Shown here piece by piece: positions 1 through 13,351 of a DNA stretch of 64,000 bases (position 1 is its first letter; every line of letters begins with the position of its first letter). A model generated the notes under the pieces. It was not told the origin of the DNA. It was given only the letters and a program-made list of their open reading frames with translations, and did not search any database. This DNA comes from Thermoleophilia bacterium SCSIO 60948 (lineage in GTDB: Bacteria > Actinomycetota > Thermoleophilia > Solirubrobacterales > 70-9), in NCBI GenBank assembly GCA_021496505.1, contig CP053031.1:1178001-1242000 (forward strand), in the 5' to 3' direction. Position numbers and translations under genes: made by a program.

Positions 1-918
1 GTCCCAGTCGATCATCGGCCCGATCGGGACGAACCGCGTCGGATTGATCTGCGGGTGGGTCGTGTAGTAGTGGAGCTTGATCTGGTCGATGTCGAGCGTC
101 TGGCGGACGCCTGGGATCGACAGCAGATCCCGCGTGTAGTCCCAGAGCCGCGGATAGTCGACGATCCGCCACAGGTTGCACTTGAAGTGCACGTAGTAGA
201 CGGAGTCGAAGCGCACGAGCGTCGTGAACAGGCGCCAGTCCGCGAGGGTCGGCGAATCCCCGATGAGGAAGCGACGGTCGGCGAGCCGGCGCTCGAGCGA
301 GTCGAGCTCCTCGAAGAGCGGACCGGCGGCGGCCTCGTATGCCGACTGTGAGCCTGCGAAGCCCGCCCGGTAGACGCCGTTGTTGACGCGCTCGTAGACC
401 CGCCGGTTGGTCTCGTCGATCTCCTCGCGATGCTCGGCGGGGTAGAGGTCGAGCCCCGGGTTCTCGGCCCATTCGTCCCAGGCCGAGTTCAGCATCACGA
501 TCACGTCGGCCGATTCGTTGTTGACGATCCGGCCCGTCTCGCGGTCCCAGAGGACCGGCACGTTCCAGCGACCCTCGTAGTCGGACGCCGTGGCGTCGTA
601 GGCCTCTGACAGGTAGGAGAACCCGTTGACGGGGTCCTCCTGACCGCCGTTCTCCTCGCGGAAGGTCCAGCCGCGCTCGTCGCGGTAGGGATCGACGAAC
701 GACATGGAGACGACGTCTCCGAGTCCCTTGAGCTCGCGGACGATGACCGCCCGGTGAGCCCACGGACAGGCCGCGCACACATACAGGTGGTAGCGGCCCG
801 GCTCAGCCTTGAAGCCTGTCGAGCCGTCGGCCGAGACCCACTCGCGAAGCGAAGCGGTCTCCCGCACCCACTCGCCGGACTCGGAGGTCTTAAAGACGTC
901 TCGTTCGGCGGTGGTCAT
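1..918 (-). CDS. Glutathionyl-hydroquinone reductase (Xi-class glutathione S-transferase), C-terminus cut off by the window edge
   Basis: Starts at the ATG on 918-916 and runs in frame to base 1 without a stop, giving 306 codons of a family usually around 320-330 residues. The thioredoxin-like N-domain carries the hallmark CPWAHR with catalytic Cys at about residue 51, which is typical of Xi-class GSTs (YqjG/PcpF type). The all-alpha C-domain follows with the family-typical FLIGDSPTLADWRLF stretch. Known role of the family: glutathione- or thiol-dependent reduction of glutathionyl-(hydro)quinones in the cytosol. Actinobacteria generally use mycothiol, so the natural thiol may differ; that is inference. 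Upstream 919-1104 is non-coding with nothing recognised. Confidence 0.9.
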   Translation of the reverse strand, partial: MTTAERDVFKTSESGEWVRETASLREWVSADGSTGFKAEPGRYHLYVCAACPWAHRAVIVRELKGLGDVVSMSFVDPYRDERGWTFREENGGQEDPVNGFSYLSEAYDATASDYEGRWNVPVLWDRETGRIVNNESADVIVMLNSAWDEWAENPGLDLYPAEHREEIDETNRRVYERVNNGVYRAGFAGSQSAYEAAAGPLFEELDSLERRLADRRFLIGDSPTLADWRLFTTLVRFDSVYYVHFKCNLWRIVDYPRLWDYTRDLLSIPGVRQTLDIDQIKLHYYTTHPQINPTRFVPIGPMIDWD

Positions 919-1104
919 CGCCCGGCGACGCTAGCAGCGGCGCGTCGGGGGCTCGCCCGCGTCCGGCACGCGGCGCAAACCGACCGCTTCTACCTGGGCC
1001 CCGTGCGATCGCATCAAGAGGGGTGCGCGAATCGGCTCGAACCGGACCTGAAGACGACCCAAACTGCGCGCCACGCCCGCGCGGATTCCCTGCAAAGTCG
1101 GTGA

Positions 1105-1878
1105 ATGCACCAGCAAGAGACGCGGACGAGGGTCCAATCCCTGCTTGCTTCCGGGATGAACGATTGTGCCGTCTCGCGCGAGACCGGCATCCCGCGATCA
1201 ACGGTTCGTGAGATGCGTCTGGAGGCCGAGGGCCGGCCTCGGTACGAGAAGCGCGTCGAGCGGGAGCGGTGTCCCCGCTGCTGGGCCTCGTCCAAGCCCA
1301 TCCGTTTCGGGCCCGCGGACTACGCACAGCTTCTCGGCCTCTACCTCGGCGATGGGTGCATCTCACGGCAGGGCCGCACGTTCAGGCTCCGTATCGCCCT
1401 CGACGCGGCCTACCCCGAGATCGTCTCCGCGACGGCCGAGCTTCTCCGGCGCGGCTTTCCGGCGAACCCGGTCGCGGAGGTCCGAGGCTCAAAGGGGAAT
1501 TACATCTCGGTATCCGTCCACTGCGCTCACCTGCCTTGCCTGCTCCCCCAGCACGGGCCGGGTAGGAAGCACGAGCGCGACCTATCGCTCGAGGCTTGGC
1601 AGTCCGCACTGCTCGAGGAGCATCCATGGTCCTTCCTGTGCGGCTGTATCTGGAGCGACGGTTGCTCCTTCGTCAATCGCACAGGGCGATACGAGTACCT
1701 CGCGTACGGATTCGCGAACCGCTCGGAGCAGATCGCGTCTCTCTTCGAACAGTCGTGCGACCGCGTGGGTGTTCGTTGCCGCAAGACGTACTCCGCGACA
1801 ACGGGCCTCTGGCAGATCCGCGTCAATCGTCGGGGCGACGTCGCGCGCTTCCTCCGCCACGTGGGGAGAAAGGCGTGA
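1105..1878 (+). CDS. LAGLIDADG-type homing-endonuclease-like protein with N-terminal helix-turn-helix
   Basis: A 257-residue protein. Residues about 10-42 look like a Hin/resolvase-type helix-turn-helix (MNDCAVSRETGIPRSTV). A CPRC pair at 56-59 may bind zinc. Two LAGLIDADG-like motifs follow, LLGLYLGDG at about 77-85 and FLCGCIWSDG at about 177-186, each ending in the acidic residue expected for metal binding, so the single chain would form a pseudo-dimeric nuclease core. It is free-standing, not inside an intein or intron that I can see, and ends 23 bp before tRNA-Leu. Such HTH-LAGLIDADG proteins are known in actinobacteria, where their activity is mostly untested. No clear Shine-Dalgarno precedes the ATG. 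Confidence 0.72.
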   Translation: MHQQETRTRVQSLLASGMNDCAVSRETGIPRSTVREMRLEAEGRPRYEKRVERERCPRCWASSKPIRFGPADYAQLLGLYLGDGCISRQGRTFRLRIALDAAYPEIVSATAELLRRGFPANPVAEVRGSKGNYISVSVHCAHLPCLLPQHGPGRKHERDLSLEAWQSALLEEHPWSFLCGCIWSDGCSFVNRTGRYEYLAYGFANRSEQIASLFEQSCDRVGVRCRKTYSATTGLWQIRVNRRGDVARFLRHVGRKA

Positions 1879-1901
1879 TCATCGATAAATTGACCCAGTC
1901 T

Positions 1902-1986
1902 GCGGCTGTGGCGGAATTCGGCAGACGCGCCAGCTTCAGGTGCTGGTGGGGGAAACCCCGTGGAGGTTCGAGTCCTCTCAGCCGCA
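1902..1986 (+). tRNA. tRNA-Leu (anticodon CAG)
   Basis: An 85-nt class II tRNA. The acceptor arms GCGGCTG (1902-1908) and CAGCCGC (1979-1985) pair fully, with discriminator A at 1986. The anticodon stem CCAGC/GCTGG encloses the loop TTCAGGT, so the anticodon is CAG (1937-1939). The long variable arm is typical of tRNA-Leu, and the T-arm contains GTTCGAGTC. No CCA is encoded. It decodes CUG, a preferred Leu codon at this GC content. Confidence 0.96.
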
Positions 1987-2037
1987 TCGAAATTCGGGAC
2001 TCCATCCCGTATCGCGTTGCTATCCTGATCGGTCCCT

Positions 2038-2110
2038 GCCGCTATCGTCTAGGGGACTAGGACGCCGGATTCTCAGTCCGGAAACCGGGGTTCGAATCCC
2101 CGTAGCGGTG
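2038..2110 (+). tRNA. tRNA-Glu (anticodon CTC)
   Basis: A 73-nt tRNA with acceptor arms GCCGCTA (2038-2044) and TAGCGGT (2103-2109), closed by a G1-U72 wobble pair, and discriminator G. The anticodon stem CCGGA/TCCGG has the loop TTCTCAG, so the anticodon is CTC (2072-2074). The T-arm contains GGTTCGAATCC. Its 3' end is the integration site of the island to the right; the tRNA itself is intact. Confidence 0.95.
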
Positions 2111-2115
2111 CCTCT
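2091..2115 (+). other. Left attachment core (attL) at the 3' end of tRNA-Glu
   Basis: These 25 bases, covering the T-loop to just past the 3' end of tRNA-Glu, recur exactly at 5370-5394. They begin TTCGAATCCCCG and end GCGGTGCCTCT. A duplicated tRNA 3' end is the standard footprint of integration by a tyrosine recombinase. The match ends sharply: a G precedes the left copy and an A the right, and the base after the copies differs (C against G). Confidence 0.88.
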
Positions 2116-2160
2116 CGATCCGGCTTTCTGACGCCGGATTCTGCTTCTTAGAGGCGCTAA

Positions 2161-2182
2161 TGCGCCAGTCCATGCGCCAGTC
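2161..2182 (+). repeat. Paired TGCGCCAGTC repeats, left end of island (possible integrase arm sites)
   Basis: TGCGCCAGTC occurs at 2161-2170 and again at 2173-2182, a 12-bp period. The same motif, in the same orientation and as a pair, recurs at 5234-5254 near the right end. Paired direct repeats flanking both sides of an integrated element resemble arm-type binding sites of tyrosine recombinases. That role is inferred. Confidence 0.55.
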
Positions 2183-2404
2183 GGGGGCCGGATGTAGGGG
2201 AATCAAGCGCAAAGGCGCGTCGAGGACTCCGGCGGTGGAGAGTCATGCGACCCCGCCCCCCTTCCGGTAGGCAATCGAGCCGCCCGATGCCCCCTCACAA
2301 CGGACGCGCACGCTCGCTACACCCTGAAATACGGCACGGAAGTCCGAACGGGCGTTGAGACTTTGATCCCGGCAGGCGGCAATCTGAGAGCGCGACTTCA
2401 GCGA

Positions 2405-3757
2405 CTAAGAGTCGAGATCGAGGCGTTCCAACGCGGGCAAGTAGCCCTCGGAGAATGTCGGAAATTGAGCCACGGTGTCTTTCAGGACCGCGATCGGAAT
2501 TTGAGCCTTCACGGCAAGGACAGCTTGATGAATCCACTCGCCCGCTAGTGGACCGACCGCCCACGCCCCGACCAACACGCGCCGCTCGCGATCGGCGATC
2601 ACCCCAACCTCGCCGCCTACTCCCTCGCCGAACGTCTCCGTCCTGGCAACGCTCATAAGGTCTGCCCGACCCTCGCTCGTCTTGACGCCATGCTCGCGCG
2701 CCTGAGCCGCTGTCATTCCCACGGCTGCGATCTCGGGGTCGGAGAAGACGACGCGAGGGATCGCCGTGTAGTCGGCCTGGACTGCCTCCCCCGCGATGTC
2801 GTCGCACGCAACACGCGCCTGATACTTCCCGGTATGCGTGAACAGCGAGACGCCAGTCACGTCGCCGATCGCCCAGACACCTTCCGTAACTCGGCAGCGA
2901 TCGTCAACCGGAATCCCCCCGCGCTCGCCTAGCTCCACGCCCAGCACGTCGAGTCCCAGATCGCGGGCGCGAGGCCGTCTGCCGGTCGCGACGATGATCC
3001 GCTCCGCCGAGACACTCGTGCCCGATTCGAGCCGAAGCGTCTGACGACCGGCATCCCCCGTCGCCGCAACCGCCTTCTCTCCGACACGAACCTCGATTCC
3101 GTCTTCCTTCAAGGCGTCCTCGATCAACTCGCTGACGCGTGGCTCCTCTCGATCGATCAGCCGCTCAGCGCCCTGAACGATCGTCACGTCGGCTCCGTAT
3201 CGCCGAAGCATTTGTCCGAGTTCAATCCCGACCGGACCGCCTCCGAGGACAACCACGTCGCGCGGCATTTCCGAGAGAGTGGTCGCCTCTCGGTTGGTCC
3301 AGAAGTCGATCTGATCGAGGCCCTCGATCTGCGGAGCCATCGGATCGCTGCCGGTCGCGACGATGATGCGCTCGCTTGTCAGTCGCTCACCGCCTACCTC
3401 AACGGTGCCGGGGGAGACAAACCGAGCCTCTCCCTTGTAGACGGAGACGCCGCTGTCTTCATAGCCCTTGACCGCGCCCGAGTCATCCAGGTTTCGCACC
3501 ATGTAATCCCGGTACTTGACGATCTCAGCCCACCTTGCCTCCGGCTCCGTTAAGCCCGGCGCGCGTATTGCCTCCGCCCGTACCTCCGGCGGTCGCAGGA
3601 GCGTCTTTGACGGGATGCACGCCCAGTACGCGCACTCGCCGCCGACCATCTCGCGCTCGACCAGCGCCGTGTTCAAGCCGCGTTTTGACAGCCGCGAGGT
3701 CGCAACCTCGCCTGCTGGGCCAGCGCCGATCACGATCGCGTCGTAGTGACGACTCAT
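2405..3757 (-). CDS. FAD-dependent pyridine-nucleotide disulfide oxidoreductase, mercuric-reductase-like (class I)
   Basis: A 450-residue flavoprotein. An N-terminal FAD site VIGAGPAG is followed by the redox-active disulfide motif GGECAYWACIPSK (Cys about 42 and 47), an NAD(P) site with VVLGGGPVGIELG, and an ATGRRPR segment with an AIGDVTG FAD motif. The overall layout is that of dihydrolipoamide dehydrogenase and MerA. It lacks the N-terminal HMA domain and C-terminal vicinal Cys pair of classic MerA, and the usual HTHPTxSE end reads AQFPTFSE, so the catalytic His is replaced. Its start overlaps the upstream stop by 4 nt (ATGA). Context suggests metal or organomercurial reduction; the substrate is unproven. 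Confidence 0.85.
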   Translation of the reverse strand: MSRHYDAIVIGAGPAGEVATSRLSKRGLNTALVEREMVGGECAYWACIPSKTLLRPPEVRAEAIRAPGLTEPEARWAEIVKYRDYMVRNLDDSGAVKGYEDSGVSVYKGEARFVSPGTVEVGGERLTSERIIVATGSDPMAPQIEGLDQIDFWTNREATTLSEMPRDVVVLGGGPVGIELGQMLRRYGADVTIVQGAERLIDREEPRVSELIEDALKEDGIEVRVGEKAVAATGDAGRQTLRLESGTSVSAERIIVATGRRPRARDLGLDVLGVELGERGGIPVDDRCRVTEGVWAIGDVTGVSLFTHTGKYQARVACDDIAGEAVQADYTAIPRVVFSDPEIAAVGMTAAQAREHGVKTSEGRADLMSVARTETFGEGVGGEVGVIADRERRVLVGAWAVGPLAGEWIHQAVLAVKAQIPIAVLKDTVAQFPTFSEGYLPALERLDLDS

Positions 3758-4080
3758 TGCGGCGACTCGGAGCGTTGTCGGCGCAGCGCGTCCACGAGCC
3801 ACGCTTGCGGTGGGATGCCGGACGTTCCCTGCGCGGAGCGATACAGGCGGCACTTCAACCCGAAGTCGCTGCGATCACCCGCACCGGGGTCGATGTCCTC
3901 GCCGTTGATCCGAACACTCGGGGAGCCGAGGAACCCTTCGGCCTCCGCTGCTTCGAGAGTCTCGACGCGGCGAAGCTCGACCTCATCCTCAAAGCCCTCG
4001 CGCTTCAGCGCCGCGCGAAGCTCCGGTAGCAGCGCCTTGTAGCTCGGGCAGCCATCGAAGTAAAGAAGCTCGACCCTCAT
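3754..4080 (-). CDS. Thioredoxin-like Cys protein of the mer-like operon
   Basis: A 108-residue cytosolic protein with a short beta-strand start (MRVELLYFDGCPSY), a single Cys in the place of a thioredoxin active site, and a FLGSPSVRINGEDIDP segment resembling the cis-Pro face of thioredoxin folds. A further Cys lies in GLKCRLY. Small proteins of this kind are, to my recollection, found beside mer and organomercurial genes in actinobacteria. A role in passing a metal or thiol to the next enzyme is inferred. It is coupled by ATGA overlaps on both sides, so it is translated together with its neighbours. Confidence 0.75.
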   Translation of the reverse strand: MRVELLYFDGCPSYKALLPELRAALKREGFEDEVELRRVETLEAAEAEGFLGSPSVRINGEDIDPGAGDRSDFGLKCRLYRSAQGTSGIPPQAWLVDALRRQRSESPQ

Positions 4081-4400
4081 CCGGCCAACCTCGCGAGTAG
4101 ATCGTCCGGGCGCTTTCGGAACTCCTCGGTGCAACAGGGACAGCGACAGAAATGGACCTCCATGTCTCCATGAGTGATCGAGACGGTGAGATGTTTCGGC
4201 TTCTCAGCAAGGCAGGTCGGGCAGACGATCCAGTCTCGAACCTCCGCTAGATACTCGTCCGGCTTTTCGCGAAATGCCTCAACGCAACCGGCGCAGCAGA
4301 ACAACAACTCCTCACCCCGGTATTCGAGACGATCAGCCTCCTCGCGCTTGATCCCGAGCCGCACGAGCGAGCAGCCGCAGGTGGGACAGATAGGACTCAT
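4077..4400 (-). CDS. Cys-rich tandem YHS/TRASH-like metal-binding protein
   Basis: A 107-residue protein made of two similar Cys modules. Module 1 has CPTCGC near the start and FCCAGCVEAFREKPDEYL around residues 34-51. Module 2 has CPTC and FCRCPCCTEEFRKRPDDLL near the end. The aromatic-Cys-(x)2-3-Cys then FxxxPxxY/L pattern is that of YHS/TRASH-type metal-binding domains. No signal peptide or membrane segment is visible, so a cytosolic metal chaperone or sensor role is plausible. It sits between the membrane protein and the thioredoxin-like gene with 4-nt overlaps on both sides. The start has GGAGG just upstream. Confidence 0.72.
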   Translation of the reverse strand: MSPICPTCGCSLVRLGIKREEADRLEYRGEELLFCCAGCVEAFREKPDEYLAEVRDWIVCPTCLAEKPKHLTVSITHGDMEVHFCRCPCCTEEFRKRPDDLLARLAG

Positions 4401-4603
4401 TGGCCTCCGCCGTCCGGTGTCTCCTCACGGCGGCGATAAAGCGCGATCGAGATGAGCAGAAGACCGAGGGCGATAACGGCTCCGGTCCATCCGGCGACCA
4501 CGGCGAGGGAAACGCCGCCGATTACCCCGACCACGAGTGGGAGCACGGCGCAGCAGGCAACAACGGCAGCGGCTGTCCCGGCGACAGCGATCGCGTCCCG
4601 CAT
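4397..4603 (-). CDS. Small MerF/MerT-like membrane protein with Cys-Cys pair
   Basis: A 68-residue protein with two predicted membrane helices. The first contains a vicinal Cys pair in AVVACCAVLPLVVGV, the signature placement of MerT/MerF mercury importers. The second is followed by a basic RRRE tail. The ATG at 4603 is preferred over the GTG at 4609 because GGAGG lies 9 nt before the ATG and the ATG overlaps the regulator's stop (TGATG). No MerP-type second pair is present. Function as a Hg(II) or other soft-metal importer is inferred from the motif and the operon. Confidence 0.75.
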   Translation of the reverse strand: MRDAIAVAGTAAAVVACCAVLPLVVGVIGGVSLAVVAGWTGAVIALGLLLISIALYRRREETPDGGGQ

Positions 4604-4968
4604 CAGCACGGACCTCCGTCCACGGTGGAGCAGGCCGCGACGTGTTCCGCATTGTCGGCGAGCAACTGCCGTCCGAGGTCCACAACCTCAGACACCCGCG
4701 CATCTGCCACCCGGTAGTACACGGTCCGATGCTCACGGCGTGTAATGACGAAGCCGCACCATCGAAGACAAGCGAGATGCTTCGACACCTTCGGCTGCGG
4801 AAGACCGAGTCGCTGCACTAACTCGCCCACCGACGCCTCCCCGTCTTGCAGCGCGGCGATCAGTCGCAGACGTGTCGGGTCGCCCAACGCCCGGAAGTAC
4901 TTTGCCGTCAGGTCCAGCGGGGCGGGTTCTGGCTCGATCCGAAACGGGGCTTCCGTAGCAACGGTCAT
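4603..4968 (-). CDS. ArsR-family metalloregulator of the mer-like operon
   Basis: A 121-residue winged-helix repressor. The recognition region reads LGDPTRLRLIAALQDGEASVGELV followed by LGLPQPKVSKHLACLRWCGFV. Candidate metal ligands are two Cys in HLACLRWCGF and two more at the C-terminus (CSTVDGGPC). ArsR-type proteins replace MerR as the mer regulator in streptomycetes, which fits this operon. The start MTVATEAPF at 4968 is chosen because conserved homology begins there; upstream in-frame sequence looks non-coding. An inverted repeat (4972-5007) directly upstream is a candidate operator. Confidence 0.88.
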   Translation of the reverse strand: MTVATEAPFRIEPEPAPLDLTAKYFRALGDPTRLRLIAALQDGEASVGELVQRLGLPQPKVSKHLACLRWCGFVITRREHRTVYYRVADARVSEVVDLGRQLLADNAEHVAACSTVDGGPC

Positions 4969-4971
4969 ATT

Positions 4972-5007
4972 CGGATTAAAGCATGTGAGGCGCGGGGGCC
5001 TAATCCG
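4972..5007. promoter_or_regulatory. Inverted repeat upstream of the arsR-like gene, candidate operator
   Basis: CGGATTA at 4972-4978 is exactly complementary to TAATCCG at 5001-5007, with arm centres 29 bp apart. The left arm lies 3 bp from the regulator start codon, overlapping where transcription would begin. Autoregulation by the ArsR-like protein is the obvious reading, but ArsR sites usually have a shorter spacer, so this could also be two half-sites. Confidence 0.4.
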
Positions 5008-5082
5008 GTCGGACGGCGGAGGGTGCATGTGCGCCGCCGCCTTGCCGCTGTCCGCCCCGAAAGGTGGGGGTTCCCGCCGTAG

Positions 5083-5211
5083 GAGTTCATGGGTCACTCC
5101 ACGATCACCGAGACATTCGACACCTACGGCCATCTCATGCCGGGGAGTCGCGACGAAGTACGGGTCAGGATGGACGCCTACCTCGATCGCAGCGCCGCCG
5201 CTGACGCGTGA
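5083..5211 (+). pseudogene. Truncated tyrosine recombinase (integrase), C-terminal remnant
   Basis: An open stretch of 42 codons starts just after an in-frame TAG (5080-5082) and ends at TGA 5209-5211. It contains FMGHSTITETFDTYGHLMP, the C-terminal box of phage-type integrases: the GH of the LGHxS motif and the nucleophile Tyr of TYGHL are kept. The catalytic Arg, Lys and RHxLR regions are absent upstream in any frame, so the enzyme must be inactive. Its place just inside the right attachment repeat matches an integrase gene next to attP. Confidence 0.8.
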
Positions 5212-5233
5212 TCGTTCGACGCGCGAGAGGCCG

Positions 5234-5254
5234 TGCGCCAGTCGTGCGCCAGCT
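5234..5254 (+). repeat. Paired TGCGCCAGTC/TGCGCCAGCT repeats, right end of island
   Basis: TGCGCCAGTC at 5234-5243 and TGCGCCAGCT at 5245-5254, an 11-bp period, lie just after the integrase remnant and about 115 bp before the right attachment core. They match the pair at 2161-2182 in sequence and orientation. They are possible integrase arm-type sites. Confidence 0.52.
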
Positions 5255-5369
5255 ACTTGCCCTACCGTGCGGCTTCCTGCGCCTGTCGCGCGACGGGCCG
5301 ACCGGACGAATGGCTCGCTTGTGCCGCAGTCAGCCGCAGCGGTCCGCTGCGGCCTGCCGTCCCCCGCAA

Positions 5370-5394
5370 TTCGAATCCCCGTAGCGGTGCCTCT
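5370..5394 (+). other. Right attachment core (attR), duplicated tRNA-Glu 3' end
   Basis: Exact 25-bp copy of 2091-2115, without the rest of a tRNA upstream, so it is not a second tRNA gene. It marks the right border of the island. The stretch from here to 5512 is non-coding and probably carries the promoter of the secreted protein gene at 5513; TATGTAT at 5494-5500 is a weak -10 candidate. Confidence 0.86.
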
Positions 5395-5512
5395 GGATTA
5401 CTCCTACGACGCCCGGGGCGTACGTGCCCGGTCGGGCGCCCCGCGCCGAGCGCGACTCGCTCGCGGGCAAAGCGGCTGTACTCGGTGCCCACTTATGTAT
5501 TGTGCCCCACCA

Positions 5513-7042
5513 ATGGGGGGTCGAGGACTATCGGTGGGACTGGCTGCGGCTGCTCTCTTTCTGTCTCTGGCGGGGCCGGCGCAGGGTGCGACCTTCTGCG
5601 TCGAAGATGCCGAGTGCGTTGCCGCCGGCGGGACCGCCCAGCCGACCCTCCAGGCCGCCTTCAACGCGGCCAACGCCAACGGCAACGATTCGGATCGGGT
5701 GAAGATCGGGGCGACGACCCTGAACGCCGGGGGTATCGCGAACTCGCTGGTCGAAGTCATCGGTGCGGGTGAGGGTCAGACGACCATCACCGGCACCGGC
5801 AAGATCATCGACCTCAACGTTCGACCGTCGACGATCAAGGACCTGTCGATCGTCATGGACGGGAACGACTCGACGGGGCTGGAGACCGTCGGGCCGGCGG
5901 AGAACGTCACCGTCACCGGCACGAGCTCGATCGTCGCCTGGGGAATCGTGGTCGGGCCCGGGATGAGCAGCGATCTCACGGTCGATCTGGCGATGGACGA
6001 CCTGACCATCGGCTTGGGCATCGTTCCCCCGAACGTCGGCGCGCCGGCCGACGCGGTCGTCGAGGATTCCACGATCAGCGCCCCGATGGCCGGCATGGTC
6101 ACGCTGCCCGGAGCGCAGGCGACCCTTCGCCGCAGCGCGTTCGACGGGATCGCCGGCCTCCAAGCGGGCTCCGGAACGATTCTGGTCGAGGATTCGACGA
6201 TCCGCACCGCGCAGTCGGCGCAGTTTTCTGCGCCGGCGCTCGCAGCCGAGTCATCCTTCATCGGCGCATCGAACCTGACCGCACGAAACCTCACGATCGT
6301 CGGCGACGGGACCGGGACGGGACTCTCCGCGAAGTCGTACTGCAGCAACCAGAACGGCTTTTATCCCGCGACGATCACCGCGAGGAGCACGATCGTTCGA
6401 GGTTTCGCGACAGATCTCCAGCTCACAGGGACGAGTTGCGACACCCTGACGTCAGGGCTTCAGAACGTGCCGGCCACGATCGACATCGCGGATTCGATCT
6501 ACGACCCCGCAAAGGTCACCGAGACAGGGCCAGCATCCGTGAACGCCGGCGCCGGAAACCTCAACGTCGATCCGCTCTTCACCGACCTCGCCGGTGGCGA
6601 CCTGACGCTCTCGCCCGGCTCGCAGGCGATCGAAGCGGGTGATCCGGCAGGACTGGCACCGGGCGAGTCCCCGACCGACCTCGCCGGCGAGCCGCGCGTC
6701 ATCGACAGCGATGGGGACGGCACCGCGATTCGCGACATAGGCGCCTTCGAAGTTGTCCCTGACGTGGAGCGCTCGCTGACGCTCACGTATTCCGCGAAGA
6801 GAAGGCTGTTTCAGGGGAAGCTCGGCGCGCCGGTCGCAGCGTGCCGACTGGACGAGGTGGACGTCTTTCGCGTCAAGGTTGGCCCCGACCAGCTGATCCG
6901 GTCTGTCGAGACGAACGCGAGAGGCAAGTTCTTCATCCCCAAGCGTGCCTCGAAGGGCAAGTACCAGGCGCGGGTCGTGAGCCGCGAGTCCGAAGCCGGA
7001 ACCTGCCTGGCGGCCAAATCCCCGAAGGTCAGGGTCGGTTAG
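5513..7042 (+). CDS. Secreted right-handed beta-helix, choice-of-anchor-Q-type protein
   Basis: A 509-residue exported protein. The N-terminal signal peptide has a leucine/alanine core and a likely cut after AGPAQG. The body is rich in short Thr/Val/Ile-containing rungs (SLVEVIGAGEGQTTITG, TARSTIVRG and similar) typical of right-handed parallel beta-helices. A DLAGEPRVIDSDGDG...DIGAFE segment near residue 400 is the choice-of-anchor-Q signature. A C-terminal beta-sandwich-like domain with a few Cys follows (SAKRRLFQGKLGA onward). ATG 5513 is chosen because the signal peptide starts there; ATG 5495 is in frame too. It lies just outside the island. Probably cell-surface or adhesin-like; ligand unknown. 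Confidence 0.82.
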   Translation: MGGRGLSVGLAAAALFLSLAGPAQGATFCVEDAECVAAGGTAQPTLQAAFNAANANGNDSDRVKIGATTLNAGGIANSLVEVIGAGEGQTTITGTGKIIDLNVRPSTIKDLSIVMDGNDSTGLETVGPAENVTVTGTSSIVAWGIVVGPGMSSDLTVDLAMDDLTIGLGIVPPNVGAPADAVVEDSTISAPMAGMVTLPGAQATLRRSAFDGIAGLQAGSGTILVEDSTIRTAQSAQFSAPALAAESSFIGASNLTARNLTIVGDGTGTGLSAKSYCSNQNGFYPATITARSTIVRGFATDLQLTGTSCDTLTSGLQNVPATIDIADSIYDPAKVTETGPASVNAGAGNLNVDPLFTDLAGGDLTLSPGSQAIEAGDPAGLAPGESPTDLAGEPRVIDSDGDGTAIRDIGAFEVVPDVERSLTLTYSAKRRLFQGKLGAPVAACRLDEVDVFRVKVGPDQLIRSVETNARGKFFIPKRASKGKYQARVVSRESEAGTCLAAKSPKVRVG

Positions 7043-7103
7043 CGCCTGAGATCGGCCTCCCCGCCCGCCTGACCCAGCCCCAGCACGAACCCAGGACACA
7101 ACT

Positions 7104-9532
7104 ATGAGTCTTACGCCCGTCGCGGACCAGCACGCGACCTCGCGCCCCGCTGCGACGACCTCGAACGGCAGGGGGCTCGCCGCCCGAGCTCTGGGGCTTC
7201 TCAGGCCGGGGCGGCCGGCTATGCGCGCCGCCGTCGCCATGCCGCTCACGGCAGCCTTCCTCGTCGCGGCTCAACCGGCCCAGGCCGAGACGATCTCGGT
7301 CCCCTGCGAATCGGGGGCGAGCGCCCTGCGGTCGGCGATCACGAGCGCGAACCAGAACACCTCCGCCACCGAGATCGATCTCGCGCCCGGCTGCACCTAC
7401 ACGTACACCAACGCAGCAGCCGGTCCCGCGCGCTACGCCTTCTGGTACGGCCCGGCAGCGTTGCCGGCGATCGCCAGTCCGGTGACCGTCGTCGGGAACG
7501 GCGCGACGATCGAGCGCGCGGCTGACGCGACGGATCCGTTCCGCCTCTTCTTCGTCGGCGCCGATCCCGTCGATCCCGACACGTTGAACTACGCGACACC
7601 GGGGCCGGGCGCGCTCACCCTGCAGAACCTGACCCTGCGAAACGGCCTCGCCGAGGGCGGCAGCTCCAGCCGGGGCGGTGGCGGTGGCGGCTTCGGAGGA
7701 GCGATCTACAACCAGGGAAGCCTGACCCTCGCCGGAGTCACCGCGACCGGCAACCGCGCGGCCGGCGGAGACAGCGGCCACTACAACGACGACGGCAGCG
7801 CGCACAGCGGTGGCGGGGGTATCGGCACCGACTCGGTGGGGACGACCGGTGGTGGGTTCGGAAGCGAATCTCCCTACTCCGGCACCAGCACCGGCGACCT
7901 CACCAACGAGGACGTGGTGAGCGGCGGCGGCGGGGGTTCCGCACGTCGGAGAACGGCACAGGCAAGGCGGGGGGAGGCCCGGGAACGGGCCTCGCCGGGC
8001 GCGGAGGAAAGCGCATCGACCAGTCCTTCGGCGACGGCGGCAACGGCGGCGGCGGCGGGCGCCATCCCTACTTCGGCGATCTGCCGGGCGGCGATTTCGG
8101 ATTCGGCGGGGTCGGCGGTCTCAACGACCGCACCCAGGCATGGGGCGGTGGCGGCGGTGGTGTCGGCGGCGGCGGAGGAGCCGCGCGCCCTCGCAGCTAC
8201 GTCCCGTCCAACACCAACGACACCAAGGTCGCCGGAGGGGGAGGCGGCTTCGGCGGAGGAGGCGGGGGTGCCTCCGGCGGCTTCGCGGGCGGTCAGGGAG
8301 GCTTCGGCGGCGGCGGCGGTGCGCCGCAGGGCCCGGGCGGCTTCGGCGGCGGCAACGGCGCCTACGTCGACTACTACGAAGGTGGCGGTGGCGCGGGCAT
8401 GGGCGGTGCCGTCTTCAACCACCAGGGGACGGTCAGGATCAGCAACTCGACGCTGGCCGCGAACAGCGCGGAGGGGGGCTCGACCTGGCGCGGCGGCACC
8501 GCCGGACAGGGCCTCGGCGGCGCCATCTTCAACCTCAACGGCGAGGTCGACGTCAGCTTCGCCACGGTCGCGGGCAACAGCGCGCCCGACGGCGGAGCCG
8601 GCATCTACAACCTCGGCTACATGGGCGTCGACACCGGCGCGGGTGGCCACGCCTACATCGCGACCGCCGACATCGACAGCTCGATCGTCCACGACGCTGC
8701 GAGCCAGGACGTGGCCTCGAACGCGCCCACCACCGTGGCGAACGGCGCCGGCAACACCGCCCCGTCTCGCGTCGACTTCGGCGGCTCCGACATCGTTCAA
8801 TCCGTGGCCGCCGTGGGAACCGGCACGACCACGGGCGCTCCGATGGCAGCGGACCCCCAGCTCAGCCCGTTGGCGGCCAACGGCGGCGACACGTTCACGA
8901 TGGCCATCGGCGGCGCCAGTCCCGCTTTCAACGCCGCCGGCGCCACCTGCGCGCCGGCGACCGACCAGCGAGCCACCCCGCGGCCCCAATTCGGGGCCTG
9001 CGACGTCGGCGCCTTCGAGCTGGGCACGTCGTCCACGATCTCCGTCCTCAGGTCCGGCAGCGGCGCCGGCAGCGTCACCTCTGACCCGGTCGGGATCGAT
9101 TGCGGCGCGACGTGTAGCGCCGATTACCCGTCAGGTCAGTCGGTGGCGCTCACCGCCACTCCCGAACCGGGCTCTGTGTTCGACCATTGGGACGGCGCCT
9201 GCACCGGGGTCGAAGCGACCTGCACGGTCATGGCGGACGATCTCAACGTCACCGCGGTGTTCGCCGATGTGACCCCGCCTGACACCAAGGTCACCAAGAC
9301 GGTGGTCAACGACAAGAGGCGCACGGCGACCTTCAGGTTCGCGTCGACGGAGCCGGGCTCGACCTTCACCTGCAAGCTCGACGGGCACCCCGCTCGTCCC
9401 TGCACCTCCCCGCGGACCTATGCGAACTTGAAGGTCGGTAGGCATCGTCTCAAGGTCACGGCCGCCGATGGGGCCGGCAACGCCGATCCCACCCCCGCGT
9501 CGAAGCGGTGGAGGATCAGGCCACGTCGCTGA
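7104..9532 (+). pseudogene. Secreted glycine-rich beta-helix protein with InlB-type repeat, frameshifted in a G run
   Basis: The coding signal starts at ATG 7104 (AGGA 7 nt upstream). An N-terminal extension leads into a signal peptide ending PAQAE, then beta-helix sequence (LTLQNLTLRNG, GGAIYNQGSLTLAGV). At the G5 run 7932-7936 the signal moves to another frame and continues to 9532 with GGAVFNHQGTVRISNSTLAANS, an InlB-type repeat (GSGAGSVTSDPVGIDCG) and an Ig-like tail. One extra G would restore an 809-residue protein. The shift sits in a very Gly-rich part, so it may be a real mutation, slippage-prone phase variation, or a sequencing error. Paralogue-like neighbour of the gene at 5513. Confidence 0.8.
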
Positions 9533-9567
9533 CAGGCGCGAGCTGATCGGAGCAGTCCAGGGCTAGG

Positions 9568-10065
9568 GTGGCAGCCGTGGGAGAGCGGGCCCGAGGCGAT
9601 TACACGGGCGAGCGGGCCGTCCACACGATCTACGGCTCGGTCGTCGTCCTCGCCGTCATCGTCGCCGCTCGCGGCAGCGAAGTCACCGCCGGCGAAGCGA
9701 TCGCATCGGTCGTCGGTGCGGCGGTCGTCACCGCGCTCGCCGAGATCTACGCCGACTACATCGGTGCGACGATCGCCGCGAGGCGGCACCCGACACCACG
9801 CGAGCGTGAGACGACGATCCGGAACTTCGCGTTCGGGTTCCTTGCGGCGATTTCGCCGGTGGTCTTCTTCGTTCTCGCCGCCGCCGGCGTGATCCGCCTC
9901 GACGTCGCGTTCGACATCGCGGTCTGGACCGGGGTCGCCGTCCTCGGCGGCTACGCGACCGTCGCGCATCGTCTCGCCGGCAACTCGATCGGGCCCAGCC
10001 TCGCGGTCGGGCTCTTCTTCTCGGCGATCGGGGCCTTCCTCGTCGCCCTCAAGGGACTCGTCTAG
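9568..10065 (+). CDS. Small integral membrane protein of unknown function
   Basis: A 165-residue protein with a GTG start at 9568 (another GTG at 9577). Roughly four to five hydrophobic segments: VHTIYGSVVVLAVIVAA, IASVVGAAVVTALAEI, FAFGFLAAISPVVFFVLAAAG, VWTGVAVLGGYATVA and the C-terminal GLFFSAIGAFLVALKG. A cytosolic loop TIAARRHPTPRERETT lies between helices 2 and 3. I do not recognise the family with certainty; it resembles small VIT-like or DUF membrane proteins. It stands alone between a secreted protein and the GFA gene. Confidence 0.7.
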   Translation: MAAVGERARGDYTGERAVHTIYGSVVVLAVIVAARGSEVTAGEAIASVVGAAVVTALAEIYADYIGATIAARRHPTPRERETTIRNFAFGFLAAISPVVFFVLAAAGVIRLDVAFDIAVWTGVAVLGGYATVAHRLAGNSIGPSLAVGLFFSAIGAFLVALKGLV

Positions 10066-10103
10066 ACCACCACGTCCCGGCGCGGCGTAACCTGCGTCCG
10101 GCG

Positions 10104-10523
10104 ATGTCCAAGCCAGTCCTCACCGGATCATGCGGCTGCGGCGCGGTGGCCTTCGAGGTCTCCGAGCCGCTCGTAGCGGCGCTCTACTGCCACTGCACGC
10201 GCTGTCAGAAGCGGACCGGCACTGCGGTCCAGGCCTCGGCCCGCGTCATCCCTGGCTCCGTGAGCGTGACGGCAGGGACGGAGGTGCTTCGTCACTGGTC
10301 GCCGCCCGAAGGCCTCGCGAAGACCTTCTGCGGCGAGTGCGGATCGCATGTCTTCGCGGGCGACCCCGAGAGCGGCGCGATCCTGGCCGTCCGCCTCGCC
10401 GCGATCGATGGCGACCCCGGCGTTCGTCCGCAGGCGCGCCAGTTCGTCGCCTACGCGGCCGCCTGGGAGCCGATCCCCGACGACGGCCTGCCGCGCTTCG
10501 ACGAGCGCGTCCCCGCGAACTAG
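10104..10523 (+). CDS. GFA/CENP-V family zinc protein
   Basis: A 139-residue single-domain protein. Zinc ligands of the GFA fold are visible: CGC in GSCGCGAVAF, then YCHCTRCQKRTG and the later FCGECGSHVF. The family contains glutathione-dependent formaldehyde-activating enzyme, but most members in organisms without glutathione have no known substrate, so only the fold is assigned. Its stop overlaps the stop of the convergent LuxR-type gene by a few bases. Confidence 0.88.
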   Translation: MSKPVLTGSCGCGAVAFEVSEPLVAALYCHCTRCQKRTGTAVQASARVIPGSVSVTAGTEVLRHWSPPEGLAKTFCGECGSHVFAGDPESGAILAVRLAAIDGDPGVRPQARQFVAYAAAWEPIPDDGLPRFDERVPAN

Positions 10524-13351
10524 GCGGCGTCAGGGCGCTGCGAGCCCGCGGCGTGCTCCGGTTCGAGCGCGCCGGCGAGTTCGTCACGCGATTCGATCTC
10601 GAGCTTTCGGAAGGCGTTCGAGAGGTGTCCCTCGACGGTCCGTAGCGTCACGAAGAGCGACTGGGCGATCTCGCGGTTCATCATCCCGCCGGCCGCCATG
10701 CGGGCGACCCGGCGCTCGCTGGCCGTAAGCGAATCGGGACCGCGTCGCGCGAGGCGCCGCGGCCGCGCGCCGGCGAGAACCAGCTCCTCGCGCGCCTCGG
10801 TGGCGACGGCGCTCGCGCCGATCCGATGTGCCCGGTCCATTCCCGCCTCGAGGACAGTCCGCGCCTCGGAGCGACTGCCGTCGCGCCGCAGGAAGGCGCC
10901 CAGCTCCACCTCGGCATGCGCGAGCTCGAGCTCCGCGCCGGAGCCCCCGAGCACGTCGACGGCGCGCGAGAGCGCGTTGCCCGCGCGCGCCGGGTCCGGC
11001 TCGAGCCGTCCGAGCCGCAGCGCCTCGCCGATTCCCCGCGGCGCACCGAAGGCCTCGGCGGCCTCGAGTTGCTCGGCTGCGAGCTCGAGCGCGTCCTCGA
11101 CCCGCCCGAGCGCGTGCAGGCTCGCCGCCGCCGGCACACGCCACGCATTCACGACCCTGATTCCGCGCGCGGGCCCCCACTCTGCCTCGAAGGCACGGCA
11201 GGGCTCCAGCCGTTCGATCGCCTGCTCGTGAAGGCCCGTCGCCGCGAGCATCCTCGCGGAGGCGATGTGGAGCAGTTGCGAGAAGCCGATGTCGGCATCG
11301 TCTCGCCGCCCCTCGAGCGTCTCTGCGACCCGCTCGGCCCCGTCGAGGTCCCCGCGCTCGATCGCGACGGACGCGAGCACGAACGTCGGGAGCGAGAAGA
11401 ACATTTCCCACGCACTCTCGGCCGCCAGATCGAGACTGCCGAGCGCGTCGGCCTCGGCGCCGTCGAGGCGACCGGCGAGCCAGCGACTCCAGGCCCGGAG
11501 ACCCGAGTGCATCGCGAAGTCCCGCGCTCGCCCGCGCGCCTGAGCGTTCCCGATCAGATCGCGGAAGACCGCCTCGGCACCATCGAAGTCGCCGGCGAGG
11601 AAGAGGGCGTTGACGCCCCCCGACACGAACAGCGCATCGCGCAGCAACCGCTCGTCTCCGAGCGCCCGCCGGGCCAGCCCCAGCGCGCGTTCGGAGTCCG
11701 CCGCCTCACCGACCGCGGCGTCGAAGGCGACGCCCGCGAGGGTGGCGCTCGAGGCCGAATCGGGGTCTTGCTCGGTCGCCACCGCCACGGCCGCGAGCTG
11801 CGACCCGGCCAGTCGTCGCCCGGACGCGGTCGAGCAGGCGAGCGGCATAAGGCGCGCCTCGAGGAGCCCCACGAGCTCGGGTTCGTCGGCGGGGGCCGAG
11901 CCACGGGCCGCCGTGAGCACCTCGAGGGCATCCGCGGTCCGACCCTCGTGAATCAGGGTGTCGATGAGCGCGATCGAGATCCGTACCCGGTCGACATCGG
12001 AATCGGTGGCGGCGAGCGCTGTGCGCAGGTGATCGCTCGCCGAGGGGTCGCCCAACATCGCCAGCTGCGTACCGAGGTCGAGGTTGACGAGCGAGACGAA
12101 GCGCGCCGGCGGTGGCTCCTCCAGCGCACGACGCAGCATCTCGACGGCCGGCTCCGGTCCGCCGCGCGCGACGGATTCCGCCGCGACCTCGACGAGGCGG
12201 GCGACCGCGCTCGCGTCACCGGCGGGATCCGTTTCGAGCAGGTGGGTGGCGATCGCCCGCGCGTCGTCGCCCCCATCGGCGGCGAGGGCCGCGGCGTGGC
12301 GGTGGAGCGCGCTTCGCAGTCCGCGGGGGGTCGCGTCGTGGATCGCAACGCGGATGATCGGATGGGCGAACGCGAGCGGACGGCCGACCGTGAGGATCGA
12401 CGCCACCGCCAATTCGTCCGCGACGCGGCCCGCTCGGTCGACGTCGAGCTCGGCCAGCGCGGCGACCCGGTCGACCGAGGCTCCGTCACCCAGGACCGCG
12501 ACCGCGCGGGCCACGCGCTCACCGTCGGCGATCGCAGCGACGCGTTCGAGCGCGAAGTCGCGGACGCTCTCGGGGGCGATGCGCTCGACGTCCTCCTCCG
12601 ACAGATCAGCGACGCCGCCGCGCCCGATCTCGCCGAGCAGCTCGACCAGGAGGAACGGGTTGCCCGAGCTCGCCCGTGCGCAAGCGGCGGCGAGCGGCCT
12701 CGCCTCCGAACCGACGGCGCGCTCGATCATCTCCTCGACGGCATCGGCGCCGAGGGGTCGCGGGACCAGGAGGAACGAGTCACCGCCGCGTCGCCCTGAC
12801 GGCCGTGCCTCCTCGTCGCGTTCTGCAGTCGCGACGCCGACCGGCATTCCGTTGAGACGGTTGCGCAGGAAGTCGACAAACCTCCGCGAGGGCTCGTCGA
12901 CCCATTGCAGATCGTCGACGATCAGCAGTACGGGGCTCTCATGGGCGAGGTTCGAGACCAGCCAGTAGAGGCCGTGGAGCACCGGATAGGAGCCGTCCTC
13001 GTCGACACTCGCGCTGCGATGGTGAGCGAACACCGGCTCAGCGAGCGCCGCTGCTCCGGCGAGCAGGCCATCGCGCTCGGACTCGTCGCGAAGCCTCGCG
13101 TCGAGCATCTGATGCACCGCGCCGAAGGCGAAGCTCCGCTCGAGCTCGCTGCCACGCGCGTGCAGGACCTGAACCCCGGCTCGCCGAGCACGTCCGTCGA
13201 GTGCCGCCAGCAGCGAGGTCTTGCCGATACCTGGCGGCCCCTTGATGGCGATCGAGTCGCCCTCACCCTGACCCAGCGAGTCGACGAGCGCATCGAAGCG
13301 CTCGAGCTCGGGCTCGCGATCGAGTAGGGCTGGAGCGTCGATTGCCGTCAT
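10520..13351 (-). CDS. Large ATP-binding LuxR-family transcriptional regulator (LAL type)
   Basis: A 943-residue regulator. The N-terminal AAA/NACHT-like ATPase has Walker A GPPGIGKTS (about 38-46) and Walker B-like VLLIVDDLQWVD. The long middle is rich in Leu/Ala helical hairpins of TPR-like type. The C-terminal LuxR HTH reads LTASERRVARMAAGGMMNRE, then TLRTVEGHLSNAFRKL. LAL/MalT-type proteins are ATP-dependent activators triggered by a small ligand on the TPR-like region; the ligand and targets here are unknown. Monocistronic, convergent with the GFA gene. Confidence 0.93.
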   Translation of the reverse strand: MTAIDAPALLDREPELERFDALVDSLGQGEGDSIAIKGPPGIGKTSLLAALDGRARRAGVQVLHARGSELERSFAFGAVHQMLDARLRDESERDGLLAGAAALAEPVFAHHRSASVDEDGSYPVLHGLYWLVSNLAHESPVLLIVDDLQWVDEPSRRFVDFLRNRLNGMPVGVATAERDEEARPSGRRGGDSFLLVPRPLGADAVEEMIERAVGSEARPLAAACARASSGNPFLLVELLGEIGRGGVADLSEEDVERIAPESVRDFALERVAAIADGERVARAVAVLGDGASVDRVAALAELDVDRAGRVADELAVASILTVGRPLAFAHPIIRVAIHDATPRGLRSALHRHAAALAADGGDDARAIATHLLETDPAGDASAVARLVEVAAESVARGGPEPAVEMLRRALEEPPPARFVSLVNLDLGTQLAMLGDPSASDHLRTALAATDSDVDRVRISIALIDTLIHEGRTADALEVLTAARGSAPADEPELVGLLEARLMPLACSTASGRRLAGSQLAAVAVATEQDPDSASSATLAGVAFDAAVGEAADSERALGLARRALGDERLLRDALFVSGGVNALFLAGDFDGAEAVFRDLIGNAQARGRARDFAMHSGLRAWSRWLAGRLDGAEADALGSLDLAAESAWEMFFSLPTFVLASVAIERGDLDGAERVAETLEGRRDDADIGFSQLLHIASARMLAATGLHEQAIERLEPCRAFEAEWGPARGIRVVNAWRVPAAASLHALGRVEDALELAAEQLEAAEAFGAPRGIGEALRLGRLEPDPARAGNALSRAVDVLGGSGAELELAHAEVELGAFLRRDGSRSEARTVLEAGMDRAHRIGASAVATEAREELVLAGARPRRLARRGPDSLTASERRVARMAAGGMMNREIAQSLFVTLRTVEGHLSNAFRKLEIESRDELAGALEPEHAAGSQRPDAA

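Follow-up and report, generated by a model that had tools for sequence, protein, structure and literature searches.

A probable 3.3-kb remnant of a tyrosine-integrase element in tRNA-Glu(CTC) of Thermoleophilia bacterium SCSIO 60948, carrying a mercury-associated accessory operon

A 3.3-kb genomic island occupies the tRNA-Glu(CTC) gene of Thermoleophilia bacterium SCSIO 60948. It lies in a 64,000-nucleotide stretch of contig CP053031.1, here called the window; all coordinates are positions in this 64-kb window, and the genome is complete (3.42 Mb). The island is probably (roughly 0.75) the remnant of a tyrosine-integrase element, similar to a cis-mobilizable element (CIME), that carries a mer-accessory operon. 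Its two ends are intact in appearance, its integrase is reduced to a short C-terminal stub, and two sister elements, G025 and G055, are inserted in the same tRNA gene in related bacteria. The original prediction had described the locus as a decayed island with a compact metal-resistance operon that selection had kept.

Ends of the island and its integrase remnant

The following features define the island.
2038..2112, plus strand: tRNA-Glu(CTC), the target gene, complete (ARAGORN).
2091..2115, plus strand: attL core, from the tRNA-Glu T-loop to 3 nt beyond its 3' end (exact 25-bp direct repeat; the boundary is the same in G025 and G055).
2117..2140, plus strand: terminator-like hairpin behind the tRNA, on the element side (pattern scan, which finds about as many in shuffles; fold z = -2.8).
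2161..2180, plus strand: left arm-type doublet, TGCGCCAG-N4-TGCGCCAG, spacing 12, 70 bp from the core start; putative binding site.
5083..5211, plus strand: tyrosine integrase remnant, the last 42 codons and stop (phrog_1 match; C-termini across the order).
5234..5252, plus strand: right arm-type doublet, TGCGCCAG-N3-TGCGCCAG, spacing 11, 136 bp before the attR core; putative binding site.
5370..5394, plus strand: attR core, the displaced tRNA-Glu 3' fragment (exact copy of the 25-bp repeat).

The 25-mer TTCGAATCCCCGTAGCGGTGCCTCT is exact at 2091-2115 and 5370-5394, with a start-to-start distance of 3279 bp, and the copies are 97% identical when lengthened to 29 nt. No third copy was found in the complete 3.42-Mb genome, and shuffles give an expectation of 0.00 chance matches in the window at up to 3 mismatches. 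The unit thus has the layout of a tRNA island, with a complete tRNA gene at one end and a same-strand 3' fragment at the far end. The idea that the repeat is coincidental and the operon an ordinary chromosomal one has practically no probability. Its sole support is that an empty site is not shown, whereas the chance expectation, the integrase stub, the doublets and the sister elements at the same tRNA all oppose it, and the sisters already contradict it.

The integrase remnant is translated as EFMGHSTITETFDTYGHLMPGSRDEVRVRMDAYLDRSAAADA, beginning EFMGHSTITETFDTYGHLMPG, and matches the phrog_1 integrases (E=7e-5). Integrase C-termini that match this stub are found in 41 of the 151 genomes of the order. 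Because a TAG stands in frame directly before the stub, only 42 integrase codons remain. There is no intact integrase within the island, and no other recognisable mobility gene was found in 2116-5369. With its integrase cut to the last 42 codons, the unit is unable to move by itself. Comparison of the genome's six other integrases with the stub gave no helper candidate, nothing beyond a short 50% match.

Six occurrences of the word TGCGCCAG were counted in the 64-kb window, and four of them make the two doublets just inside both repeats. In 2000 dinucleotide shuffles of both end segments, with any 8-mer at spacing 11 or 12 counted, 0.35% had a doublet at the left end and 2.4% at the right, and none had one at both. 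Comparable doublets come immediately after the stop codon in further integrases of this type (G080 and G126, for instance). The same holds behind the integrase match of G003, which may itself be shortened. From their position and conservation, we infer that the doublets are integrase arm sites. They are new relative to the original prediction, whose account of a tRNA-Glu end recurring exactly 3.28 kb downstream, with an integrase C-terminus inside the right end, is borne out by the repeat and the stub.

Sister elements and other islands at the same tRNA

For an order-wide hunt, the integrase stub was used as the query and the best loci were then examined for tRNA genes. The two sisters (G025 at locus L228 and G055 at L229, both read as reverse complement) occupy tRNA-Glu(CTC) in two genera that belong to two other families of the order, and the T-loop position at which their repeat begins is that of the window unit. 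The G025 cores start at 789 (attL) and 10490 (attR), and the 9.70 kb between them include an intact 396-aa integrase toward attR. The element also encodes a terminase large subunit (phrog_2, E=2.3e-34) and a primase-like AAA ATPase, and it has a weak match to a head protease. G055 has its cores at 7498 and 10827, which enclose 3.33 kb with an AAA_25 ATPase and a 223-aa integrase frame that lacks its N-terminal part.

The att geometry is common to the three elements. The left doublet lies 70 bp from the core start in the window and in G025 and 68 bp in G055, with spacing 12 in all three (doublet-to-core distances were obtained by subtraction). The right doublet has spacing 11 in all three and lies about 136, 140 and 117 bp before the attR core in the window, G025 and G055, respectively. 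The doublet word is GCGCCAG in the window and G025 and GGCTAGCAA in G055; the spacing is kept and the word has changed. In both sisters, a hairpin likewise follows the tRNA immediately, on its element side, and the integrase orientation is the same in the window unit and the sisters. Because this geometry is shared, the unit is an integrative element with complete-looking ends that has lost its integrase, and its decay, as first proposed, is upheld by a sister with an intact integrase where the window has 42 codons. Both cores and both arm-type doublets are still present in the window. By this reading, the integrase would have recombined a core starting in the T-loop with the tRNA gene, and the insertion would have left the tRNA complete and placed the hairpin behind it. 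The remnant would then be movable only if a matching integrase entered the cell. Since the ends look complete, excision of the unit by a supplied integrase is directly testable.

Two observations concern the sisters themselves. The G025 element (L228 reverse complement, 789-10510) is phage-satellite-like, with no capsid or tail gene recognised; packaging and replication genes of the kind found in phage satellites such as phage-inducible chromosomal islands (PICIs) are absent from the window unit, unlike G025. In G055, a second integrase C-terminal stub (L229 reverse complement, about 12800-12935) lies ~2 kb past attR and perhaps marks a tandem decayed element; no further tRNA-Glu fragment was found. 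Scans of IMG/VR with the G025 integrase and the MerA-like protein as queries found nothing.

Other members of the family have short islands at this tRNA-Glu that belong to a different att type, with a repeat starting near the anticodon loop. The 1.45-kb island of G008 (L081, 3704-5229) and the 2.0-kb island of G011 (L080, 8627-10725) have a ~100-bp right end and a 79-aa protein in common. More copies of this right end (orphan right ends at L084, L086/L243 and L242) occur in G021, G077 and elsewhere in G008; these islands look like a family of non-autonomous or decayed elements. In G023 (L079, 960-3030), the 2.0-kb island enclosed by tRNA-Glu and the 3' fragment of this gene contains hardly more than an AbiEi/AbiEii pair. 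No integrase was recognised in the G008, G011 and G023 islands among the frames read, which is not an exhaustive six-frame domain search. The three were considered as the same element type as the window unit and rejected, as they have other ends and a repeat that begins at the anticodon loop. An island of this second att type in G080 is 15.3 kb long and has its own integrase (called by eye from sequence), and the single congener (54% complete) has a different integrase element at the same tRNA-Glu.

It is rather unlikely that the window unit is non-autonomous instead of decayed, that is, a mini-island whose attL and attR are complete and which spreads by being mobilised in trans by the integrases of related elements. 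The cores and doublets are in place with the geometry of a sister that has an intact integrase, and other very short islands (1.45-2.0 kb; G008, G011 and G023) sit at tRNA-Glu, two of them with a common right end. As small islands are recurrent at this tRNA, some of them could still move in trans. However, the 42-codon stub speaks for loss, a second copy of the unit was not found, a matching helper integrase is absent from the genome, and the att type of the short islands in relatives is a different one.

The five-gene cargo and its mercury association

The cargo is composed of five genes on the minus strand, given here in the order of transcription.
4603..4968, minus strand: ArsR/SmtB-family regulator, first gene of the operon, 121 aa (NF033788 above cut-off).
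4397..4603, minus strand: small two-helix membrane protein with CC in the first helix (its ATG at 4603 overlaps the arsR stop by 1 nt).
4077..4400, minus strand: YHS protein, Cys-rich, 107 aa (PF04945 above cut-off; 44% relative on plasmid pMR68).
3754..4080, minus strand: DF family (seleno)protein, Cys form, 108 aa (NF049942, 108.1 bits, cut-off 70).
2405..3757, minus strand: flavin adenine dinucleotide (FAD) disulfide oxidoreductase, MerA-like, without the C-terminal Cys pair, 450 aa (Pfam, NCBIfam and comparison with canonical MerA).

Neighbouring genes overlap by 1 nt (TGATG) and then by 4, 4 and 4 nt (ATGA), in agreement with the compact operon of the original prediction, whose coordinates were right. 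The five genes are probably one operon and would be co-transcribed. The regulator is of the MerR/ArsR type expected in a mer operon by its NF033788 match, and it contains the motif CLRWC. The homologues of the membrane protein have CC and P in the first helix in common. The YHS protein matches TRASH models weakly and is rare (2 of 396 genomes sampled from the phylum). The flavoprotein scores best, and equally well, with lipoamide dehydrogenase and MerA (TIGR02053), in both cases below cut-off; its redox pair CAYWAC is present.

The association with mercury comes from relatives of the cargo. A canonical MerA with C-terminal CC lies in the fetched flank of 50 of 80 flavoprotein genome loci, many of which also have MerB and ArsR; these loci were picked by similarity, near relatives are included and several contigs are short, and the fraction should be taken as descriptive. 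In three plasmid records, merA and merB are annotated next to the flavoprotein, together with ArsR or heavy-metal regulators. Plasmid pMR68 of Pseudomonas K-62 encodes the 44% relative of the YHS protein, in the position just downstream of an alkylmercury-lyase gene that belongs to the third mer cluster; by its position, this lyase gene is taken to be merB2 of PMC3737084. The YHS reading frame on pMR68 (L259, 4751-5074) has no gene listed there and is a candidate unrecognised mercury gene. All five cargo genes occur in the same order in a Thermoleophilaceae metagenome-assembled genome (L130), and partial sets occur in L129, L134, L135, L136 and G002. The G002 cluster has MerB by Pfam and is the closest cargo in the family (70%), with an adjoining tRNA-Met whose tail was not repeated within the 19 kb read.

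No protein of the SCSIO 60948 genome passes the MerA cut-off, and no MerB was found in it, a weaker absence because control genomes gave no signal either. The operon in this genome is a mer-accessory set standing alone. The prediction of metal resistance is plausible and has support from gene context: the gene set is mercury-associated, but neither MerA nor MerB was detected in the genome and the flavoprotein lacks the C-terminal Cys pair. An uncharacterised mercury-associated set (YHS, DF and second flavoprotein) recurs beside merA and merB and is alone here; because it stands alone, its contribution would be measurable without MerA.

In a model of cargo function, the ArsR-type repressor would sense a soft metal, most likely Hg(II), and the small CC-bearing membrane protein may pass the metal. 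The YHS protein may bind metal and hand it on, while metal-thiol or oxidised-thiol products would probably be dealt with by the DF protein and the FAD disulfide reductase. With neither MerA nor MerB present, protection would proceed via binding and thiol repair and not via Hg(0) formation. A version in which satellite-type integrases act in trans on a mini-island whose att ends are complete, so that it spreads MerA/MerB-free detoxification of mercury or soft metals via a YHS carrier, a DF protein and a dedicated FAD disulfide reductase, is unlikely.

Several results weigh against a CIME-like remnant with mercury-accessory cargo. The regulator scores 72 bits with the CmtR model, where the cut-off is 150. 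The small membrane protein was compared with MerF, and this identity was rejected (hhalign probability 9%, not significant; no Pfam hit). The flavoprotein ends in ...ERLDLDS without Cys, and so the C-terminal Cys pair held essential for MerA is missing. The mercury role is read from neighbour genes only. The cargo was not found with this integrase in 80 cargo loci or 20 integrase loci. No empty site is shown, and 40 relatives gave no real counterpart of the right flank (5395-7040); an unoccupied tRNA-Glu site would join ...GCCTCT to GGATTACTCC. The outcome that would have told against insertion, the operon at the same place without repeats, was not seen in these comparisons, where this flank is unmatched.

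That the cargo serves other soft metals (Cd, Pb) or thiol/oxidant stress instead of mercury is possible but doubtful. CmtR is a Cd/Pb sensor, and the regulator resembles it, below cut-off; the CLRWC motif presumably resembles the CxxxC metal site of CmtR, which we treat as a lead. The lack of a detected MerA or MerB in the genome and the equal scores of the flavoprotein for lipoamide dehydrogenase and MerA point the same way. On the other hand, merA and merB neighbour the cargo relatives in many actinobacterial loci, and the YHS relative lies beside merB2.

The operon may also have arrived late, into a dead inserted element that was interrupted by illegitimate recombination, so that the operon came in, most of the integrase went out, and the element never transferred the cargo. 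This history is given a low probability. About 115 bp separate the operon start from the integrase stub, the cargo was not met with this integrase in the loci examined, and the G025 and G055 sisters carry phage-type genes instead. Yet nothing in the island points to a second mobile element flanking the operon, and the cargo genes are usual passengers of such elements.

Retention of the cargo by selection does not follow from the data. By the NG86 method, dN/dS is 0.11-0.28 against orthologues in L130, L129 and G002, with dS of 1.0-2.3 (near saturation). These values show constraint on the gene families, reflecting family history and not the time since insertion, and are not a sign of retention by selection since then. 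The intact frames and overlaps are as expected both after a recent arrival and under retention. Base composition, which had been offered as a check, is suggestive at most: GC is 0.650 in the island, 0.661 in the left flank and 0.718 in the rest of the window.

Two neighbouring genes lie outside the island. Just upstream of tRNA-Leu and tRNA-Glu, positions 1105-1878 encode a LAGLIDADG_3 protein with a helix-turn-helix-like N-terminus. The reading frame of a glycine-rich secreted-type protein at 7104-9532 breaks near 7940 and continues in a second frame, suggesting a frameshift that is either real or a sequencing error.

Comparison with known systems

Mer operons are recognised by a merA with CxxxxC and a C-terminal vicinal Cys pair, and the window flavoprotein is not such a MerA. 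The actinobacterial mer loci (e.g., pMYCCH.01, L149) have, besides MerA and MerB, a second flavoprotein of the window's family, at 54-56% identity, and ArsR-type regulators occur in them; in contrast, MerA and MerB are missing from the window operon, which has the YHS, DF and small membrane proteins in addition. The mer operons of Sulfolobus (PMC3466566) likewise combine ArsR with a small, Cys-rich protein of the TRASH/YHS type, for which a role in Hg(II) trafficking was proposed. The window operon differs in being bacterial, with YHS above cut-off, TRASH weak, and no MerA. The same 2012 survey reported that mer operons of bacteria contained no TRASH genes (PMC3466566).

The closest complete element is G025, which shares the target, core boundary, doublet word and spacings with the window unit and has an integrase related to the stub (about 64% over 33 residues). 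It differs in its length of 9.70 kb and in its intact integrase, primase-like ATPase and terminase, and it has no metal genes. The T-loop/junction (J)-site islands of Islander also resemble the unit, with a complete tRNA, a displaced 3' fragment in the same orientation, and a crossover on the T-loop/acceptor side. Islander requires an integrase open reading frame (PMC4383910), whereas the unit is small and gene-poor, with a 42-codon stub and no such frame; it may therefore be missed by such filters.

A CIME is an element that kept attL and attR but lost its integration and transfer genes (PMC5704250). CIMEs are described as decayed integrative and conjugative elements or integrative and mobilizable elements (PMC5704250), whereas the sisters of this unit have a phage terminase, no conjugation gene was recognised in the related complete element of G025, and the unit measures only 3.3 kb. 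The likeness to a CIME lies in the kept attL and attR, the lost integration genes, the cargo between the ends, and the placement at a tRNA 3' end.

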